41,854 nucleotides of DNA from Eubacterium sp. (GTDB lineage: Bacteria; Bacillota; Clostridia; Lachnospirales; Lachnospiraceae): NCBI GenBank assembly GCA_017459675.1, contig JAFUCM010000136.1, positions 1 to 41,854 of the forward strand, in the 5' to 3' direction. The position numbers and the translations under genes were made by a program. The notes beneath the pieces are model-generated. The model was given only the letters and a program-made list of their open reading frames with translations. It had not been told where the DNA came from and did not search any database. Of this stretch, positions 170-41,854 are shown piece by piece (the first letter of the stretch is position 1; each line of letters begins with the position of its first letter).

Positions 170-235
170 ACATTGCCGCACCGCACCGCCTGCGGAAGTT
201 GATAAACTCAGATGAAAGTAAGGAAGAAAACCAAC

Positions 236-1615
236 ATGTCACAGGCACGTTTCATGATTGCCGCGCCGTCGAGCGGAAGCGGCAAGACACTGATTACATG
301 CGGATTGATGCATCTTCTGAAACGCAGAGGCCTGCGGGTTCAGTCCTTTAAATGCGGGCCGGATTTTATCGATCCGATGTTCCATGCGTATATTACAGGA
401 CGTCCGGCAGGCAATCTGGATGCGTTCATGGCGGAGCCGGATGTCATCCGCAGGATGCTGCAGGATGGCATGCGGGATGCTGATATTACTTTGACAGAAG
501 GCGTCATGGGGTTCTTTGACGGAATCGGATTCGGCGATACGAAGGCCAGCAGTGCAGATGCTGCGCTCCAGACAGGTACACCTGTGATTCTGGTGATGAA
601 CGGCCGCGGCGTCAGCACCAGCATTCTCCCGCTGATCCAGGGAATGCTTTCTTTTCCGGGCGGAGAAATGATAAAAGGGATTATTCTGAACCGGATTTCC
701 AAAGGTGTATTCCCCCCTATGAAGCAGATGATTGAATCGGCACTTCCTGTCAAAGTAATCGGTTATCTGCCGGAGCTTCCGGATGTGCGGCTGGACAGCC
801 GGCATCTGGGACTGATGATGCCTTCTGAAATCGAAGACCTCGAAATGCAGCTGAACCGTCTGGCAGACTGTCTGGAGGATACTGTTACGCTGGAGGGACT
901 GCTGACGATTGCAAAGGAAGCGGAAGTACTGTATGAGGACGAAACGGCCGCGTTTACGACAGCAGCAGACTGTCCGGAAGGATTCCGTGTGAGAATCGGC
1001 GTCGCAAAAGACGAGGCATTTTGTTTCTTTTATCAGGAAAATCTGCGGATGCTCGAACGTGCCGGCGCGGAGCCTGTTTATTTTTCACCGCTGCATGACG
1101 AGCATCTTCCGGAGGATCTGGATGCACTGCTGCTGGTCGGCGGCTATCCGGAACTGAAGGCGCAGGAACTGTCCGCAAACAAAAGCATGCGAACGGAGAT
1201 AGCAGACGCATGCAAAGGGGGCATGCCGGTGCTCGCAGAATGCGGCGGTTTTCTGTATCTGCACAGGACACTGGAGGATCTGGAAGGAAAAGCGTGGCCC
1301 ATGTGCGGCGTGATTCATGCCGCGGCATACAACAATCACCGCCTCACGCGGTTTGGTTATATCACCCTGCAGGGCGGGATGTTTTTCGGGCAGGACATCG
1401 GACATGTCAGAGCCCATGAATTTCATCACTATGATTCGGAGGATCCGGGAAATGCATTTCTTGCAATGAAACCGGCCGGAAAACGCCGGTGGAACTGCAT
1501 TCACAGCTCTGAGACGATGTATGCCGGATTTCCGCATCTGTATTATCCGGCCAATCCGGAAATTGTGACTGCGTATATTGCAGCAGCGCAGAGGTATCAC
1601 AGGAGGATGTCCTAA
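236..1615 (+). CDS. cbiA: Cobyrinic acid a,c-diamide synthase (CbiA/CobB)
   Basis: Glutamine- and ATP-dependent amidation of the a and c side chains of cobyrinate in cobalamin synthesis (cytoplasm). The 459-residue protein has an N-terminal P-loop of the dethiobiotin-synthetase type (APSSGSGKT) and a C-terminal class I glutamine amidotransferase domain whose nucleophile is the Cys in AECGGFLYL (about residue 336). An upstream ATG at 212 is in frame, but AAGGAAG lies nine bases before the ATG at 236 and the protein then starts like its family, so 236 is preferred. It is the first of five same-strand cobalamin genes, and its stop abuts the next start. I saw no cobalamin riboswitch or convincing promoter upstream. 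Confidence 0.93.
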   Translation: MSQARFMIAAPSSGSGKTLITCGLMHLLKRRGLRVQSFKCGPDFIDPMFHAYITGRPAGNLDAFMAEPDVIRRMLQDGMRDADITLTEGVMGFFDGIGFGDTKASSADAALQTGTPVILVMNGRGVSTSILPLIQGMLSFPGGEMIKGIILNRISKGVFPPMKQMIESALPVKVIGYLPELPDVRLDSRHLGLMMPSEIEDLEMQLNRLADCLEDTVTLEGLLTIAKEAEVLYEDETAAFTTAADCPEGFRVRIGVAKDEAFCFFYQENLRMLERAGAEPVYFSPLHDEHLPEDLDALLLVGGYPELKAQELSANKSMRTEIADACKGGMPVLAECGGFLYLHRTLEDLEGKAWPMCGVIHAAAYNNHRLTRFGYITLQGGMFFGQDIGHVRAHEFHHYDSEDPGNAFLAMKPAGKRRWNCIHSSETMYAGFPHLYYPANPEIVTAYIAAAQRYHRRMS

Positions 1616-2599
1616 GTGAAAGCACTATTCATTATTCCGGCAGTTGCCGCCGCATTTTGTCTGGATCTTCTGTTTGGAGACCCGCGCCGGCTCTATCACC
1701 CGATCCGCCTGATCGGCAATCTGATCAGTCTGCTGGAACGAATCTTAAGGAAAATTTTTCCGAAGACCAAAAAAGGAGAGCGGATCGCAGGCGCGGTTCT
1801 TGCTGTCCTTGTCATTGGATTGTCGGGAGGCATTCCGTTTGCCGCTCTGTTTTTCTGCTTCCGGATCCATATCCTTCTGGGATTTGCGCTGGAAGTTTTC
1901 TGGTGCTGGCAGCTGCTGGCCTGCAGATCGCTGCAGGTGGAAAGCATGCGGGTTTACCATGATCTGAAGCGGGAAGAGATCGAGGACGCACGGGAATCTC
2001 TGGGACGGATTGTCGGGCGTGACACGGACTTTCTGGACGAACAGGCCATTATCCGTGCTGCAGTCGAGACGGTTGCGGAAAATGCATCGGACGGTGTGGT
2101 CGCACCAATGCTCTATATGATGATCGGCGGCGCAGCATGCGGGTTTGTCTACAAATCCATCAATACGATGGATTCCATGATCGGATACAAAAATGACCGC
2201 TATCAGTGGTTTGGAACATTCGCTGCACGGCTGGATGATCTGGTAAATCTGATCCCGGCCCGTCTGACCGCATTGTTGATGATCCTGACAGCATACGGGA
2301 AGGATTACAGCAGATCCCGTGCATGGCGGATCTTCCGGCGCGACAGAAGGAAGCATCCAAGTCCCAATTCGGCACAGCCGGAATCGGCGATGGCGGGCGC
2401 GCTCGGGATTATGCTGGGCGGTGATTCAAGTTACTTTGGTTCCGTACATCACAAGGCGACACTGGGGGATCCGGAACGTCCTGCCGAGGCGGCTGATATT
2501 CTCCGGGCAAACCGGCTGATGCAGCGGGCATCTGTCGCTGCACTGATTCTGTTTGCATTGCTGCGGATTCTGATTGTACTGGTGATTATGCGCGGATGA
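1616..2599 (+). CDS. cbiB: Adenosylcobinamide-phosphate synthase CbiB
   Basis: CbiB (CobD in aerobic nomenclature) is a membrane enzyme that joins aminopropanol (phosphate) to adenosylcobyric acid. The product is 327 residues with several hydrophobic segments. Family landmarks visible are the N-terminal DLLFGDPRRLYHPIRLIG, the ENASDGVVAPMLY segment, the NTMDSMIGYKN segment and the C-terminal LGGDSSYFG. Translation starts at a GTG immediately after the cbiA TAA, with AGGAGG at 1601-1606, so the two are probably translationally coupled. A 53-base gap separates it from the aminotransferase gene. Confidence 0.94.
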   Translation: MKALFIIPAVAAAFCLDLLFGDPRRLYHPIRLIGNLISLLERILRKIFPKTKKGERIAGAVLAVLVIGLSGGIPFAALFFCFRIHILLGFALEVFWCWQLLACRSLQVESMRVYHDLKREEIEDARESLGRIVGRDTDFLDEQAIIRAAVETVAENASDGVVAPMLYMMIGGAACGFVYKSINTMDSMIGYKNDRYQWFGTFAARLDDLVNLIPARLTALLMILTAYGKDYSRSRAWRIFRRDRRKHPSPNSAQPESAMAGALGIMLGGDSSYFGSVHHKATLGDPERPAEAADILRANRLMQRASVAALILFALLRILIVLVIMRG

Positions 2600-2652
2600 A
2601 GCCTGTGTAAAACAATGAACGAAAAACGATAAAACAACAGGAATATTTTTAA

Positions 2653-3705
2653 ATGACGAATGACAATAACTATCTTCATGGCGGAGATGTCTATCACAAC
2701 ACCATCCGCCTTGATTTTTCTGTAAATCTGAATCCTGCCGGCACCCCTGATTCTGTCATACAGGCTGCAAGAGACAGCATCGGACTGATCCGGAATTATC
2801 CGGACCCGGAACAGCGTGCGCTGCGGGCGGCACTTTCTGAAACACTGAAGATACCGGCTGAACAGTTTCTGTTCGGAAACGGTGCGGCAGAGCTGATTGA
2901 CGCATTTTTAGCGGCCGCGGCCCCGGAACGTATTATCCTGCCGGAACCGTCTTTTTCGGAATACCGCAGAATTCCGGAGACACAGAACACGGAAATTCTG
3001 ACGCTTCCGCTCAGAGAAGAAGCCGATTTTATGCTGCAGGAAACGATTCCGGATCTGTCTGGCGGAAAGGATGCCGACGTGCTGATTCTCTGCACACCGA
3101 ACAACCCGAACGGCGGGATGATCCGGCCGGAACGCCTGCGGGATATTCTGAAAGCGTGCAGGGAGGCGGGAATCCGCGTGATGCTGGATGAATGCTTTAT
3201 CATGCTCTCGGATCATCCGGAGTATGCAGCAGATGCTGCGCTGCTGCAGGAATATCCGAATCTTTTTGTCCTGCGGACCTTCACAAAATCCTTTGCCATG
3301 CCGGGACTGCGTCTGGGATACGGCATGACAGCAGATGTGAATCTGCGTGAGAAAATGCGTATGCTTCTGCAGCCGTGGAACATCTCCATTCCTGCAACGG
3401 CCGCAGGCATTGCCGCAATGCAGGAGACGGAACATGTGAGGGCTGCGCGGGAACTGATCCGGACAGAGCGGGCATTTCTGGCAGAAGGACTTCGCGGCAT
3501 CGGTTATAAGGTCTATGAAAGTGCGAGCAATTATCTGCTCTTCAGAGGCCCGGAAACACTCGGCGAGAAACTCCTGGCGCATGGAATTCTGATCCGGGAC
3601 TGTTCCAATTACAGGGGACTTTCCCGCGGCTATTTCAGGATTGCCGTGCGGCAGCATGCGGATAACAGAGAATTGCTTGATACCCTTCGGCTGTTGGAGA
3701 ACTAA
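2653..3705 (+). CDS. cobD: PLP-dependent threonine-phosphate decarboxylase (CobD-like)
   Basis: Fold-type I PLP enzyme related to histidinol-phosphate aminotransferase, 350 residues. It opens with HGGDVYHNTIRLDFSVNLNP, typical of the CobD branch. The PLP lysine lies in RTFTKSFAMPGLRLGYG (about residue 212), and the cofactor-binding CTPNNPNGG and LDECF motifs are present. In cobalamin synthesis it would make (R)-1-amino-2-propanol O-2-phosphate from threonine phosphate, the substrate of the CbiB step. Position between cbiB and cobQ supports CobD over HisC, but the two families cannot be fully separated by eye. Confidence 0.85.
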   Translation: MTNDNNYLHGGDVYHNTIRLDFSVNLNPAGTPDSVIQAARDSIGLIRNYPDPEQRALRAALSETLKIPAEQFLFGNGAAELIDAFLAAAAPERIILPEPSFSEYRRIPETQNTEILTLPLREEADFMLQETIPDLSGGKDADVLILCTPNNPNGGMIRPERLRDILKACREAGIRVMLDECFIMLSDHPEYAADAALLQEYPNLFVLRTFTKSFAMPGLRLGYGMTADVNLREKMRMLLQPWNISIPATAAGIAAMQETEHVRAARELIRTERAFLAEGLRGIGYKVYESASNYLLFRGPETLGEKLLAHGILIRDCSNYRGLSRGYFRIAVRQHADNRELLDTLRLLEN

Positions 3706-3708
3706 ATT

Positions 3709-5193
3709 ATGGCAAAAGCAATCATGATACAGGGAACGATGTCAAATGTCGGGAAAAGTCTGGTGGCAGCCGGACTCTGCCGCATTTTTCATCAGGACGG
3801 TTATAAATGTGCCCCGTTCAAGGCGCAGAACATGGCACTGAATTCTTATGTGACAGATGAAGGCCTGGAGATGGGACGCGCGCAGGTGATGCAGGCGGAG
3901 GCTGCCGGCATCCGTCCGCGCGCAGAGATGAATCCGATCCTCCTGAAGCCGACAAATGATACCGGATCGCAGGTCATTGTCAACGGGAGGAGCATCGGAA
4001 ATTACAGCGCCAGAGATTATTTTTCATACAAAAAAGAACTGATTCCGAATGTGATGGCAGCCTATAAGACGCTGGCAGAGGAATTCGATATTATTGTGAT
4101 TGAAGGCGCCGGAAGTCCTGCGGAAATCAACCTGAAGGACGCCGACCATTTTGTCAACATGGATATGGCAAAGCTGGCAGGTGCGCCGGTTCTTCTGGTC
4201 GGAGACATTGACCGCGGCGGCGTATTTGCGCAGCTTTACGGAACCACTGCGCTGCTGACAGAAGCGGAGCAGAAACGGATCCGCGGCTATATTATCAACA
4301 AATTTCGCGGAGATGTGTCACTTCTTTCGCCGGGACCGGAGATGCTGGAGGAAAAAACCGGCATTCCGGTTGTCGGGACCGTTCCGATGATGCCGCTCAA
4401 AATCGATGATGAGGACAGCCTGACAGACCGTTTCGGCAACCGCAGCACCACGGGGCTTGTAGATCTTGCGGTGATCCGGCTGCCGCGCATATCAAATTTC
4501 TCGGACTTCAGCGTATTTGACATGCTGCCGGATACATCCGTCCGTTATATCAGACATCCTTCAGAGCTCGGGACCCCGGATCTGATCATCCTGCCCGGCA
4601 GCAAGGACACAATCGGAGATCTGACGTGGCTGCGTGAATCCGGACTGGCGGATCTGATTCTGCAGAAGGCGGCAGAGGGTACGCCGGTTTTCGGGATCTG
4701 CGGCGGGTTCCAGATGCTGGGACGGACAATCTCTGATCCGCTCGGGGCAGAGCGGCAGGGGACGACAGAAGGTCTCGGACTGCTTCCGCATGATACCGTC
4801 TATGAACCCGAAAAGCATCAGACGAAGATCACCGGAACCCTGCCGGAATTTTCCGGGATCCTGCAGGACCTGTCCGGCAGAGAATTCTCCGGTTACGAGA
4901 TCCATATGGGTGTCAGTTCTGTAACAGAAAATGGCAGAAAAGAAGCACTTGCGGTACCATTCCTCCAGAATCGGCATATATACGGGACCTATGTACACGG
5001 GATTTTTGATGCGGCCGGAATCGCGGCGGCTGTTGTGCGCGCACTGGCCGCAGCCAAAGGACGCGTGATCACAGATCTTCCGGATGGAGATTATGCGGCA
5101 TTTAAAGAAACACAGTATGATCTGCTTGCGGACACACTCCGCAGTTCACTTGACATGAAACAGATTTATCAGATTTTGGAAGAGGGGATTTAG
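3709..5193 (+). CDS. cobQ: Cobyric acid synthase CobQ/CbiP
   Basis: Carries out four glutamine-dependent amidations (b, d, e, g) of adenosylcobyrinic acid a,c-diamide to cobyric acid. The 494-residue protein has the N-terminal [13 protein letters not shown]-loop and the segments [13 protein letters not shown] and [14 protein letters not shown] (here [14 protein letters not shown]). The C-terminal GATase domain has Cys in [11 protein letters not shown] (about residue 331) and His in GTYVHGIFD (about residue 429). It starts three bases after the cobD stop and ends three bases before cbiC. Length and motifs look complete. Confidence 0.96.
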
Positions 5194-18628: not shown

Positions 18629-18686
18629 GGGCTTCAGAAGTGGTTTTTCCCTTTCTGACAGATATATGGAGGCAATCATCTGTAAT

Positions 18687-19754
18687 ATGGAGAAACGTGT
18701 AACGTATCATGAACAGACAGATCTGGACAATACAATCAAACTGCGCAGTGTTCTGAAGTCGCTGCCTGACTTTGCACGTGATTATTTCCGTGCATCCAGT
18801 ATTACGACTTCGACAAATACACGCTGTAAATATGCATATGACATCCGGGTGTTTTTTCAGTTTCTGATCTCGGAAAATCCTGCTTATAAGAACTATGAAA
18901 TCCGTGATTTCAGGCTTGATGATCTTGACCGCATCACGGCGCTGGACCTTGAGGAATATATTGAATATCTGAAGGTATATCGGGATCCGAAAACCGGTTC
19001 ATTGATTACCAACGGGGAAAAAGGCATCAAGCGAAAGCTGTCAGCGCTGCGGACTTTTTATGCATATTATTATAAGCATGAACTGATCAGGACCAATCCG
19101 ACGCTGCTGATCGACATGCCGAAGTTACATAAGAAAGATATCATCCGGCTGGATGCCGGAGAAGTCGCCAGTCTGCTGGATCTGGTGGAAACCGGCACAG
19201 ATGCATCCATGTCGGCACATCAGCGGAGTTATTATGAGAAAAACCGCGTCCGGGATCTGGCCATTCTGACCTTGCTTCTGGGAACCGGCATCCGTGTTTC
19301 AGAGTGTGTCGGGCTGGATCTGGAGGACGTCGATTTCCGGAACGGCGGGATTCGTGTTGTACGCAAGGGCGGCAATGAAATGATGGTTTATTTCGGCGAT
19401 GAAGTAGCCCGTGCACTGGAAGATTATATTGAGAATGACCGTGCGGCGGTAACACCTGTTCCCGGACATGAGCACGCACTCTTCTACTCTTCCCAGCGGA
19501 AGCGGATCGGTGTGAAAACCGTTGAAAACATGGTGAAGAAATACGCCCGGCAGGTGACTTCTACCAAGAAAATAACGCCGCATAAGCTGCGCAGTACGTA
19601 CGGCACGGCACTGTACCAGGAAACCGGTGACATCTATCTGGTTGCAGATGTACTCGGACACAAGGATGTCAATACAACGAAGACGCATTACGCAGCCATG
19701 AGCGATGCGCGCCGCAGAAGTGCCGCAAAAGCCGTTCAGCTGCGTGAAGACTGA
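18687..19754 (+). CDS. XerS-like tyrosine recombinase
   Basis: Site-specific recombinase with an N-terminal SAM-like core-binding domain and a C-terminal catalytic domain. Active-site residues are Arg in GTGIRVSECVGLDL, the HxxR pair in HKLRSTYGTALY, His in VLGHKDVNTT and nucleophile Tyr in KTHYAAM. At 355 residues (from the ATG at 18687) it is the size of streptococcal XerS rather than XerC/XerD (about 300), and it has the extended N-terminal region. This suggests a single-recombinase dimer-resolution system, by inference. The start is uncertain: an in-frame ATG at 18666 has no binding site, while GGAGG at 18669 is 13 bases from 18687. Confidence 0.85.
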   Translation: MEKRVTYHEQTDLDNTIKLRSVLKSLPDFARDYFRASSITTSTNTRCKYAYDIRVFFQFLISENPAYKNYEIRDFRLDDLDRITALDLEEYIEYLKVYRDPKTGSLITNGEKGIKRKLSALRTFYAYYYKHELIRTNPTLLIDMPKLHKKDIIRLDAGEVASLLDLVETGTDASMSAHQRSYYEKNRVRDLAILTLLLGTGIRVSECVGLDLEDVDFRNGGIRVVRKGGNEMMVYFGDEVARALEDYIENDRAAVTPVPGHEHALFYSSQRKRIGVKTVENMVKKYARQVTSTKKITPHKLRSTYGTALYQETGDIYLVADVLGHKDVNTTKTHYAAMSDARRRSAAKAVQLRED

Positions 19755-30037: not shown

Positions 30038-32947
30038 TCAGTCGGTTACCGCGACGTTGGAGACACCGCCCTCTGCTGCATTGCCGGTCAGGATCTGTCC
30101 TTCATCTTCCGTATTGTAATAATACTGAAGAACATCGCTGGCCACCAGACAGGAGTTCTGTGAACTGTATCCGTAGGCAATACGGATGGCAAATGCGATC
30201 GCATCATCATTATAAGTGGTGGAACCGATGATCAGAGAATGGCTCGGCCGGTTGTTGGCTTCCTGCGCCGTTCCTGTCTTGCCGTATACGTCAAACGGCA
30301 GAAGCATCATGGTCTCATTTTCCTGCATGGCTTCATGCATACCCTGGTGGATCGCCTCCCAGATATAATCCGGAAGTTCTGTCTTCTTTGCAATGGTCGG
30401 TGAGAATTCCTTCAGCAGATTGCCGTCCGGATCGGTCACCTTGCTCAGGAGATTCAGGTCATAACTGACCCCTTCGTTGGCAATGGTGGCTGCATAGCGC
30501 GACAGCTGTGAGGTTGTGTACTGATGCGCGCCCTGACCGATTGCGGAAGGAATCGCAAGATCATCCGTGACATGCGGCGATGATTCTGTGATCTGAATAT
30601 CCGTCTTCTGATCGAGTGCAAACATGGCGGAATATTTCTGGATCGTTGCCAGTGAGGTATTCTGGCTGAAGTTCTCTTCCGAGTCGAGTCCGAGACGGTA
30701 CCCGATGGTACAGAAGAAGACATTGCAGGAATGCTGGATTCCGCCGATTACATCCAGTGATCCGTGACCGGTGCGGTACCAGCAGTGAAGCTGGTCGCTC
30801 TCATCCAGAATGTCCACACCGAACAGACCGGTACACTCGATTTCCGTGTCCATATTGATGACGCCCTCATTCAGGCCGGCGGCCGCCATGACCGGCTTGT
30901 AAGTCGAACCGGGCGCGGTCAGCTGCTGCGTCGCCTTGTTGTAGAACGGCGTGGAAAGATCATTGTAAAGTTTGTTGTAATAGTCGGTGTCCATTTCGTT
31001 TGCCAGACGGTTATTGTCATAGCCTGGATACGTGACCAGTGCTCGTACCTCGCCGGTATCAGGGTCGTTGATCACGATCGAACCCGAACAGGGATCCAGC
31101 GCGAGCATGGCCGGTGTGATTTCCAGCGAGCGGATCTTCTCTGCCATAAAATCATACGGAACAATACCGCCGCTCTGCAGTTCTGCATAAAGATCATCAT
31201 GGGAATTCAGAATTCCCTGATCATACAGAATCTTACAGAGATCGGCAGGATCGACCTGATCGTCCAGCAGCATATAGTGATAAATGATCCGGGCAAATGC
31301 AGTGCGGTCTACCAGATGCAGAACCAGGTGGTCAATGACGGCCTGATAGATTTCCTCGGAATCCATATAGCTGCTGTCATTGGCAAGCTTTGAAATATCG
31401 ATCCAGTCCTGCTTTGCCGCATAGTGCAGAAAGTCGATAAAGGACACACTCTCGTCTTTGAAATAAGCCTGATAAATGTCGTCGCTTTCATCCATCTTAT
31501 CAGAATTCAGGATGCCGGTGTCCTGGATCAGATACCGGTTGCAGATGTAGTCAAGATAATCCTTGTATTCATCTGTGAGGTCCTTGTAGGCCGGCATTGC
31601 GCCGCCGCCGAGTTCCTCTGTGATCCATTTCAGGATCTGGTCCTGCTTCTGCTGATAGCGCTCATATACAGCTTTCTCCGTCTCGCTTGCATCAGCCTCG
31701 GAGAAATGCGTGATGTCGATGACATTGTTGTTGATCAGTGCATAATATACATCGTAAATCGGGATGTAAAGTTCATTGTCGGCATCTTCCACTTCTTCCG
31801 GGCCGTATTTGGTGTTCTGCAGACGCAGCAGCAGAATACCGGCAATGCGCTGTTCAAGTATCTGATAACATGCATTCTGCAGTTCCGAATCGATTGTCAG
31901 GTAAACATCGTTTCCCTGCACCGGCTGGACACGGGATTTTTCATCGATGGAAAGGACCTTTCCAAGGTTGTCGACGGTGATGTCCTCCGATCCTTCTGTT
32001 CCCTGCAGGGTCGTCTCCATGTACTGCTCAATGCCGGCTTTGCCGATGATGGAGTTGCTGGTGTACTGATCATTCTGTTTTTCAAGTTCCGCCAGTTCTT
32101 CTGCCGACGGTTTTCCGGTATACCCGATGATCGGCGCAAAGGCCATCGGATCATTGTAGACACGCTTGTAATCCTCAGAGATCGAAACACCCTGCAGGTG
32201 ATCGGAACGCTCCTCGATCGCAGCGACGGTTTCGTCTGAGACGTCCTCTGCGACGGTTACCGGAACATAGCGCTGGTAGCTGATCAGTGAAAGCTGATAC
32301 CGCACGATAATGATGCGCAGCATCTCTTCTTTGGTCAGCTCCTGCGGGATTCCGTTGCTCTCGAGCTCTTCCGGCGTGTATGGATTCTCTTCATTCACCA
32401 GCATGAAACGCTCGGAGGCGAGATAATGCATGATCTCATCAGCCGAAGCATTTGCCTCCGCTTCTGTCATCTCATCCGCGCGCTGGTAGCCGAAAATATC
32501 GGCGCGGAAACGGTCTCTGGAAACACCTTCATCGACGTCAAAGACGTAATTATCATCTTCATCGACTATGATGTGGAAATTATGGGAAAGCAGGTCTCCC
32601 TTCTCGACGATCAGTGAAGTCAGTTCGTAGATCTCGCCGTTCATCGCCAGATTCTTTTCACGCGTCGTGTTATAGCTTCCGTTGTCCTCGATGGTAACGG
32701 TATTGGCAAGCTCGTTGTAAGCCAGCAGCTTGCCCTTTACATCATAGATATTGCCGCGTGTACCCGGGACCATCCGCTTCCGGCTGGTCATAACCGTAAA
32801 ATTGTCAGCATAGGTTCTTCCATCAACAATCTGCAGCTTGAAAATCCGTGCAACAAGAATCAGACTCATTGTCAGAAAGACAATGAGCAGCAGGATAATC
32901 CGGTTTGTAAAAAATTGCTGCAGTTTCCTGATTATTTTCTTAGCCAA
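30038..32947 (-). CDS. mrdA: Penicillin-binding protein 2 (MrdA) with a large insertion
   Basis: Class B transpeptidase of the elongation complex, partner of RodA. The 969-residue protein has a membrane anchor (about residues 14-33) and a pedestal domain starting VPGTRGNIYDVKG. The transpeptidase domain has STYK (about 681), SCN (about 739) and KTGTAQEA (about 889). It is about 300 residues longer than typical PBP2 because some 260 acidic, helix-rich residues separate VYLTIDSELQ (about 350) from ALDPCSGSIVI (about 617), elements that are normally adjacent. It overlaps mreD by 16 bases and lies 17 bases before rodA. Confidence 0.94.
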   Translation of the reverse strand: MAKKIIRKLQQFFTNRIILLLIVFLTMSLILVARIFKLQIVDGRTYADNFTVMTSRKRMVPGTRGNIYDVKGKLLAYNELANTVTIEDNGSYNTTREKNLAMNGEIYELTSLIVEKGDLLSHNFHIIVDEDDNYVFDVDEGVSRDRFRADIFGYQRADEMTEAEANASADEIMHYLASERFMLVNEENPYTPEELESNGIPQELTKEEMLRIIIVRYQLSLISYQRYVPVTVAEDVSDETVAAIEERSDHLQGVSISEDYKRVYNDPMAFAPIIGYTGKPSAEELAELEKQNDQYTSNSIIGKAGIEQYMETTLQGTEGSEDITVDNLGKVLSIDEKSRVQPVQGNDVYLTIDSELQNACYQILEQRIAGILLLRLQNTKYGPEEVEDADNELYIPIYDVYYALINNNVIDITHFSEADASETEKAVYERYQQKQDQILKWITEELGGGAMPAYKDLTDEYKDYLDYICNRYLIQDTGILNSDKMDESDDIYQAYFKDESVSFIDFLHYAAKQDWIDISKLANDSSYMDSEEIYQAVIDHLVLHLVDRTAFARIIYHYMLLDDQVDPADLCKILYDQGILNSHDDLYAELQSGGIVPYDFMAEKIRSLEITPAMLALDPCSGSIVINDPDTGEVRALVTYPGYDNNRLANEMDTDYYNKLYNDLSTPFYNKATQQLTAPGSTYKPVMAAAGLNEGVINMDTEIECTGLFGVDILDESDQLHCWYRTGHGSLDVIGGIQHSCNVFFCTIGYRLGLDSEENFSQNTSLATIQKYSAMFALDQKTDIQITESSPHVTDDLAIPSAIGQGAHQYTTSQLSRYAATIANEGVSYDLNLLSKVTDPDGNLLKEFSPTIAKKTELPDYIWEAIHQGMHEAMQENETMMLLPFDVYGKTGTAQEANNRPSHSLIIGSTTYNDDAIAFAIRIAYGYSSQNSCLVASDVLQYYYNTEDEGQILTGNAAEGGVSNVAVTD

Positions 32948-39240: not shown

Positions 39241-40197
39241 TTATAAAGAAACGATCCCCCGCGCCCGGCAGATCTCCAGCATATGAGAAACAACCGCCGC
39301 AAAATCATACTGAAATGCGGAAATATCAACCCAGATGACATCCGGTTCCCGGCGGAACCAGGTCAGCTGACGTTTTGCGAAATGCCGGGTATTGGTTTTG
39401 ATTTTCCGGATGACTTCCTCCCGGGAGCATTCTCCGCGGAAATACGGGAACCACTCGCGGTACCCGAGTCCCTTCATGGATGTATTTTCCTCCGTGAGTC
39501 CGCGTGCATACAGCTGCCGGACTTCTTCCTCCAGCCCGTCTGCAATCATCTGATCCACGCGCCGGTCAATCCGGTCATAGATCTTCTGCCGGTCATCGGT
39601 CAGAACAAAATAAGCATAGCGGAAGGGAGAAGGATTCTGATGCTGTTCCGCATTGTGTGCAGAGATCGGCCGGCCGGTCTCGTGATAATACTCGAGCGCG
39701 CGGATTACCCGCTTCCGGTTATTTGGATGAATGATCTCTGCAGATGCAGGATCACACGACTGCAGCATCGAAAAGAGCGCTTCTGTCCCGCCGGGTTCCT
39801 GACTGCGTGCTACCAGAAGTTCCCGGTATGCGGAGTGTCCGGTTGTCTCTGAAAAATCAATTTCTTTCAGCAGGGCCTGAATATAAAATCCGGTGCCGCC
39901 TGCAATGATGGGAATCCGTCCTTCACCGGCGCACAGATCAACAGCGGCGCGGCCGCGTTTCTGAAACTGATAGACGTCAAATGACTCTTCGGGTTCGAGA
40001 ATATCGATCAGATAATGCGGTACACCGTCCATCTCCTCCGGTGTGATTTTTGCGGAGCCGATGTTCATTCCGCGGTATACCTGCATGGAATCCGCGGAGA
40101 TAACGGTGCCGTTGATGCGTTTTGCCAGCAGAACCGAACAGGCTGTTTTGCCGACAGCAGTCGGTCCTGTCACAATGATACAAGGTTGTTTATTCAT
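39241..40197 (-). CDS. miaA: tRNA dimethylallyltransferase MiaA
   Basis: Adds a dimethylallyl group to A37 of tRNAs reading UNN codons. The 318-residue protein has the P-loop GPTAVGKTACSV, the ISADSMQVYRGMNIGSAK and VPHYLIDILEPEESFDVYQF segments, AGGTGFYIQALL and TRHFAKRQLTWFRR. The ATG overlaps the mutL stop as ATGA, and mutL-miaA is a widely conserved pair. Confidence 0.96.
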   Translation of the reverse strand: MNKQPCIIVTGPTAVGKTACSVLLAKRINGTVISADSMQVYRGMNIGSAKITPEEMDGVPHYLIDILEPEESFDVYQFQKRGRAAVDLCAGEGRIPIIAGGTGFYIQALLKEIDFSETTGHSAYRELLVARSQEPGGTEALFSMLQSCDPASAEIIHPNNRKRVIRALEYYHETGRPISAHNAEQHQNPSPFRYAYFVLTDDRQKIYDRIDRRVDQMIADGLEEEVRQLYARGLTEENTSMKGLGYREWFPYFRGECSREEVIRKIKTNTRHFAKRQLTWFRREPDVIWVDISAFQYDFAAVVSHMLEICRARGIVSL

Positions 40198-41854
40198 AGG
40201 ATGCGCTTAAACTTTCTGTCCAGTTCATAGTGTGACATGTATACAATGGTCGGTCTGCCGTGCGGACAGTTGTATGGATTTTCGAGTTTCAGCAGCTCAT
40301 TGATCAGCGCGTCTGCCTCCTGCACGGACATGGTGTGATTGCCTTTGACGGCAGCTTTGCAGGACATGGATGCAAGCTTTTCCAGAATCAGATTTTCCGG
40401 CTGGTTTCCCAGACTGCCGAGACTGTCCAGGATATCCGTAAACAGCTGTTCGACAGATACGCCGTACAGATTTGAAGGAACGGCCGTGATCCGGTAATCG
40501 GAACCGCCAAACGGCTCGATAATAAATCCGAGTTCGCGGAAGGTGTCCAGATGCATTTCCAGCAGGGATGCCTCTGCCCCTGTCAGACTGAGAACTTTTG
40601 CCGGCGCGATCATCTGTGAATGGATTGTCTTCTCACGGTGCGCCTTCATCAGCCGCTCATACATGACCTTCTCGTGTGCTGCATGCTGATCGACAATATA
40701 CAGGTGATCCTGAAATTCAATCAGCCAGTAGGTTCCGAACAACTGTCCGATCATGCGATGGAACTGTCTGGCGGATTTTTCCAGAAGCTTTTCCGGAAAG
40801 AGTTCGGTCTGTTCGGGCTTTGGTGTCTTTTCAGTTTTTTCAGCTTTTTCAGTTTCCCGAAGCGTATGCGGCTGTCTCTCAGTATCTGAAGGCCTGTCTA
40901 TATCTGAAGGCCTGTCTGCATGGGAAGACCTGCCGGCATACGGGGCAGATGCTTCACGCAGCACCGATGATGTTTTCTGATTCGGCTCCGGCATAGTCAT
41001 GGAAGGTTCCGGCTGTGCTGTTTGCAGATTGCGCGGCTGTGCAGGTGACGGCTGTACCGGCTGTGCAGCTGGCGAACGATGCGGCTGTGCAGGTGCTGTG
41101 CCTGCCGGTTTCTCCCATGTATTGGATTTCGGTGCCTGCAGGAGATTCTGCGCCGCACGTCTCGCACGTTCAAAGGGTTCCGGCGCGGCTTCCCTGCCGG
41201 GAATCGGGCGTTCCCCCCGGAAAGACGGTTTTCTGCTCTGCTGTTCCAGCGAGATCTGCGGAATTCGTTCCCTGGTAAACAGTGCATTCTGAACGGCAAG
41301 GGTCAGCTGCCGGCTGATCTGCTCACCTTCTGAAATCCGGACTTCCATTTTGGCAGGATGTACATTTACATCTACCAGTTCCGGATTGATTTCCAGATAC
41401 AGAAGTGTAAACGGATATCTGTGCTGCATCATAAATCCGTGATAACCGTCTTCAATCGCGCGGGCGATCAGACTGCTTTTCACAAACCTGCCATTGATAT
41501 AATAATTTTCAAAATTACGATTGCCTCTGGCAATTTCAGGATTTCCGAGAAAACCGCTGATTTTCATATGGCTGCTCTCATCTTCAACCGGAATCAGCTG
41601 CTTAGCCATATCCCGCCCGTAAATCTGGAATACGATATCTCTGAGATTGCCGTTGCCGGTTGTGAAGAGGCGGCTTTTTCCGTTCATCAGCAGCTTGAAG
41701 GAGATCTCCGGGTGCGAAAGTGCCAGCTCCTCAACCACGGCAGCAATCCGGTTCCCTTCTGCGCCGGCGGATTTCAGAAATTATGCACGCGCCGGCGTAT
41801 TGTAAAACAGAGTGCGGACCAGAAAGGTCGTGCCGCCGGGCGCCCCGATTTCCT
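40194..41854 (-). pseudogene. mutL: mutL, DNA mismatch repair protein, interrupted by an in-frame TAA (5' end outside window)
   Basis: Reading from the right edge, the frame encodes GGTTFLVRTLFYNTPARA, meets TAA at 41783-41781, then continues FLKSAGAEGNRIAAVVEELA in the same frame. NTPARxKFL is a conserved MutL motif, so the TAA replaces the lysine codon (one base from AAA). After it, 528 codons are open. They hold the rest of the ATPase domain, a Pro/Gln/charged linker, and a C-terminal endonuclease region with DQHAAHEKVMYE (the DQHAx2Ex4E metal motif) and CPHGRP. The longest uninterrupted reading starts at a GTG at 41738 but would lack the ATP-binding half. It overlaps miaA by four bases. 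Confidence 0.8.
40870..40926. repeat. 18-base repeat in the mutL linker
   Basis: TCTGAAGGCCTGTCTATA is followed directly by TCTGAAGGCCTGTCTGCA and a more degenerate copy, encoding repeated RPSD units (HADRPSDIDRPSDTERQ) in the linker. It is in frame and does not break the gene. Confidence 0.6.

Follow-up and report, generated by a model that had tools for sequence, protein, structure and literature searches.

The stretch of DNA that was analysed (the window) is 41,854 bp long and comprises the entire contig C176; the draft genome to which it belongs has 220 contigs and 2,983,852 bases and was 91.79% complete and 6.85% contaminated. A mutL gene is located at its right end on the minus strand (40194..41854); it is truncated by the contig end, is present in the window from about codon 136 onward and is followed by miaA (39241..40197, minus strand). 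The minus-strand codon at 41781..41783 is TAA, lies in the mutL frame and stands within the motif NTPARA*FLK, as had been reported for the NTPARxKFL motif in an earlier reading of these letters alone (the sequence-only reading); it is codon 159 in the numbering of the first row of our genus alignment. The frame is open on either side of the stop, upstream as far as the contig end, and the TIGR00585 profile matched the locus with 321.9 bits with one TAA inside the match. Matches to PF01119 (transducer) and PF08676 (MutL_C, dimerisation/endonuclease) were found downstream of the stop, and the DQHA endonuclease motif and the CPHGRP motif were readable, so the rest of the gene is as well preserved as had been described. 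This downstream part is an open frame of 514 amino acids with a GTG start (40194..41738, minus strand), which covers the transducer and the C-terminal domain and lacks the ATPase part. Since the window is a whole contig, the TAA sits 71 bases from a contig end; the distance had previously been given as 72 bases, and whether the window edge was a contig edge, which it is, had been left open.

The 5' part of mutL was located on another contig of the same draft genome, C138, followed by an intact mutS and miaB. The state of mutS, which the sequence-only reading had proposed to check, is thus clear: the gene matched TIGR01070 with 1033.8 bits (cut-off 641.7). The N-terminal GHKL ATPase domain (PF13589 and PF02518) was found above the cut-offs on C138 and was absent from the part of the gene on the window contig. 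With the 5' part of mutL, mutS and miaB on C138, the order miaB-mutS-mutL-miaA is kept across the contig break, and a full-length mutL, flanked by an intact mutS and miaA, is most likely present in the species.

The two contigs overlap. Over its last 130 bases (41725..41854), the window was 97% identical to bases 1-130 of C138, with four mismatches at 41727, 41745, 41783 and 41812. At 41783, the site of the TAA, C138 codes for Gln and has no stop, so the second copy of the site in the assembly does not support the stop. The mismatch at 41727, the third base of C138, changes Asp in C138 to Glu in the window, that at 41812 changes Asn in C138 to Thr in the window, and that at 41745 is synonymous; therefore, all but one of the four differences alter the protein. 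A third contig with the same mutL stretch, which would back either state of the codon, was not found in the draft genome. Towards the nearest relative, G003, the nonsynonymous share was 37 of 190 differing codons (7 of 59 in the C138 part and 30 of 131 in two aligned blocks of the window part). At least three nonsynonymous differences out of four would be expected with P = 0.025 under this between-species share and with P = 0.70 under random substitutions, which is supporting evidence only, since there are no more than four differences and since variants within a population normally show a higher share than those between species. The chance of at least one stop in the 126-nt stretch concerned was 0.055 with three random substitutions and 0.072 with four. 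Relative to C138 the stop is a transition, and transitions are a common kind of real mutation. Identity to G003 amounted to 85.9% for the C138 tip and 85.2% for the window tip, compared with 89.5% for the mutL part of C138 beyond the tip and 90.4% and 85.9% for the two window blocks.

For a comparison with relatives, which had likewise been proposed, mutL-family matches were collected; they were found in 60 of 61 genomes, 57 of them above the cut-off, the genome under study being included in both counts. None of the 59 matches among the 60 other genomes (56 above the family cut-off) contained an internal stop, a few of them being partial and not covering the codon (for example those of G025, G038 and G060), and a stop shared by the lineage was therefore rejected. 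At codon 159, Lys was found in 29 of 31 loci and Glu in the other two (32 loci were taken, and L020 gave no motif match). A second set of 80 further loci, which may share genomes with the first, gave Lys in 70 of the 75 readable loci, Asn in three, Glu in one and Thr in one, the remaining five giving no motif match. Gln was found in none of the 31 and none of the 75. The claim that the stop replaces a conserved lysine is therefore true of the relatives and fails for the overlapping contig; since the Gln of C138 is also off the norm, the reading of C138 cannot be called correct either. By hand count on the alignment, the TAA column corresponds to K159 of E. coli MutL, in what we take to be the native residue numbering of that chain. 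As far as the available text of PMC9226502 goes, a K159E exchange in E. coli MutL had been described as affecting DNA binding, and the structure presented there places K159 away from the DNA, so that a role in folding or dimerisation is more likely.

The window tip also departs from the relatives at codon 149, where Thr replaces an Asn shared by all five aligned sequences of the genus, C138 included (the genus comparison used four other genomes, one per species). This Asn was counted by hand in 27 of 31 relatives, the others having Gln, His or Asp and none Thr. Among columns that are at least 90% conserved in the relatives, each tip departs at one of 11, in both cases at codon 159, compared with two of 76 in the interior of the window part and one of 64 in that of C138, numbers which are too small to show that the tips are generally bad. 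A mutL copy of the same species was sought in the genome collection; among the best 80 of at least 574 confirmed loci, which may omit records very near the window, the closest was 72% identical in the N-terminal part.

The TAA lies in the 20-nt loop of a perfect 8-bp inverted repeat that consists of G and C only (41762..41797, arms 41762-41769 and 41790-41797), each arm being itself a palindrome. The inverted repeat is absent from G002, G003 and G004, in which the contig continues across the site. GGCGG is found at 41766-41770, and the variant base lies 13 bases after it on the plus strand and 8 bases after GGC on the minus strand. According to passages of PMC4787001 and PMC3622629, inverted repeats and GGC accompany Illumina miscalls; the same part of PMC3622629 locates most errors 4 bases past GGC and holds that short motifs are not reliable predictors of error sites. 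Further, GGCNG is described to go with drops in coverage (PMC4872057, in part), and dips in coverage and sequencing errors to make contigs end early (PMC7953547, in part). In the draft genome itself, G+C hairpins of this kind showed no enrichment at contig ends (they occurred at 3 of 155 ends, two of which are those of the mutL overlap, vs 3 of 348 interior pieces at the 150-base setting), and hairpins as the usual reason for contigs to end in this assembly were therefore not supported. Single-strand folding of the tip was not exceptional (z = -1.24). In another species of the genus, a contig end likewise truncates the mutL gene of locus L045 (G001:C60, position 3018), about 15 codons past the codon-159 site and near a 7-bp G+C inverted repeat, possibly by coincidence.

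As a control, contig ends were compared with each other. Of the 440 ends, 171 were used, 16 of which read N and were dropped, and among the 155 usable ends ungapped overlaps of at least 30 bases with at most 8% mismatches were counted. Five terminus-to-terminus overlaps were found; four joins were exact (141, 103, 97 and 39 bp), and the mutL join of 130 bp with its four mismatches was the only one with disagreements. Several contig ends had exact shared stretches of 139-141 bp, which suggests a de Bruijn graph assembly with a k of about 141; the default maximum k of MEGAHIT is about 141. With such a k, the roughly 130 terminal bases would span about the length of one read. Furthermore, four pairs of contig starts (C1/C44, C11/C72, C15/C46 and C66/C89) had 144-251 bp in common in the same direction with 97.6-99.3% identity (148-251 bp and 97.6-99.2% for the last three pairs), and these could be strain branches or repeats.

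We consider it the most probable explanation, at about 65%, that an unreliable contig tip gave rise to the base call behind the TAA. It was inside mutL that the assembly broke, and it left two contigs with mutually disagreeing tips there; the window tip, about one read long, would rest on few error-bearing reads, and the inverted repeat and the GGC context may have helped to cause both the break and the miscalls. The position of the codon near a contig end, together with an overlapping contig that disagrees with it and lacks the stop, is what a contig-end artefact in a metagenome assembly looks like, and so are the confinement of the four-site disagreement to the last 130 bp and the G+C inverted repeat with GGC around the codon. 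The explanation is in line with the altered protein at three of four differences, the departure at codon 149, the exactness of the other four joins, the presence of the mutL 5' part and an intact mutS on C138, the absence of internal stops from the relatives' matches and the contexts of miscalls, coverage drops and early contig ends described in parts of PMC4787001, PMC3622629, PMC4872057 and PMC7953547. Unlike in a typical artefact of this kind, however, the other joins of the same assembly are exact and G+C hairpins are not enriched at its ends. The unexceptional folding of the tip and the distances of 13 and 8 bases from GGC instead of 4 also speak against an unreliable tip, as does the nature of the stop as a transition relative to C138. 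Moreover, both tips leave Lys at the same base, which would be a coincidence if the errors were independent. On balance, an assembly or sequencing error or a mixed population, which had been listed before as alternatives, fits the data better than a recent lesion in a strain that lacks full-length MutL and could be a mutator; this latter claim is unsupported, because the site is also covered by C138, where the stop is absent.

The strongest competitor of the unreliable tip is a genuine mutL nonsense allele carried by one of at least two co-occurring strains, but it is clearly the less likely of the two. C176 and C138 would then be different haplotypes that could not be joined, and the strain that gave rise to the window tip would lack full-length MutL and be a mismatch-repair mutator. 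This would account for the inexact mutL overlap next to four exact joins, and it agrees with the contamination of 6.85% and with the paired contig starts, whose lengths and identities are such as strain branches would give; mutators in gut E. coli are reported in the part of PMC7064181 available. The in-frame stop, which interrupts the N-terminal ATPase region of an otherwise preserved gene, also resembles a mutL nonsense mutator allele, but unlike for such an allele, a second copy of the site without the stop is present in the same draft genome. Against the allele, three of four differences alter the protein, and two of these fall on well conserved residues, a pattern that standing variation would not usually show; besides, the paired contig starts may be repeats, and a third contig that backs either state was not found. 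A natural population that is polymorphic at codon 159, one strain having a rare Gln in place of the nearly universal Lys and another a stop at the same base, with mismatch repair weakened or lost in some of its members, appears rather improbable to us.

It is very unlikely that the stop is fixed in the species, with mutL a pseudogene and C138 misbinned from another organism. The contamination of the draft genome would permit a misbinned contig, but C138 and the window show similar distances from G003, they overlap with 97% identity and jointly keep the order mutS-mutL-miaA, and the frame after the stop is open and conserved. Decoding of the TAA as an amino acid, for which only the open frame past the stop would speak, was rejected as having next to no likelihood, since 13 of 31 long frames in the window (chosen mechanically, not every one of them being a gene), miaA included, end at TAA as an ordinary stop and since the mutL-family matches of the 59 relatives contain no stop.

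MutL has an established role in mismatch repair. If the stop were real, the gene would be predicted to yield 158 residues of the ATPase region and at most a fragment of 514 amino acids, restarted at the GTG, without the ATPase domain. Mismatch repair would then be expected to be missing from the cell, and the stop would be one more natural mutator allele, of a kind that is already known. If the tip is unreliable, the case illustrates how the end of a metagenome contig can show an apparent lesion in a DNA-repair gene, and overlapping contigs should be checked before pseudogenes are called near contig ends.

The opposite end of the window starts in a repeat of about 165 bp (1-168), of which seven further copies with 86-98% identity were found. 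Six of these seven abut a contig end or are at most one base away from it (C75, C45, C51, C153, C83 and C171). Its inner part of about 31 bp (136-166) had 13 more matches on both strands, including a facing pair in C2, and the repeat resembles a REP or MITE element at which this assembly breaks. Elsewhere in the window, a cobalamin biosynthesis-like cluster (212-5193) encodes CbiA/CobQ-type amidotransferases, CobD/CbiB and an aminotransferase, and a gene at 18666-19754 encodes a tyrosine recombinase of the phage-integrase family. A protein of 969 residues encoded at 30038-32947 is related to penicillin-binding protein 2; its match to the PBP2 model was split in three and reached 371.1 bits, below the cut-off of 455, and the protein may be unusually long or contain an insertion.
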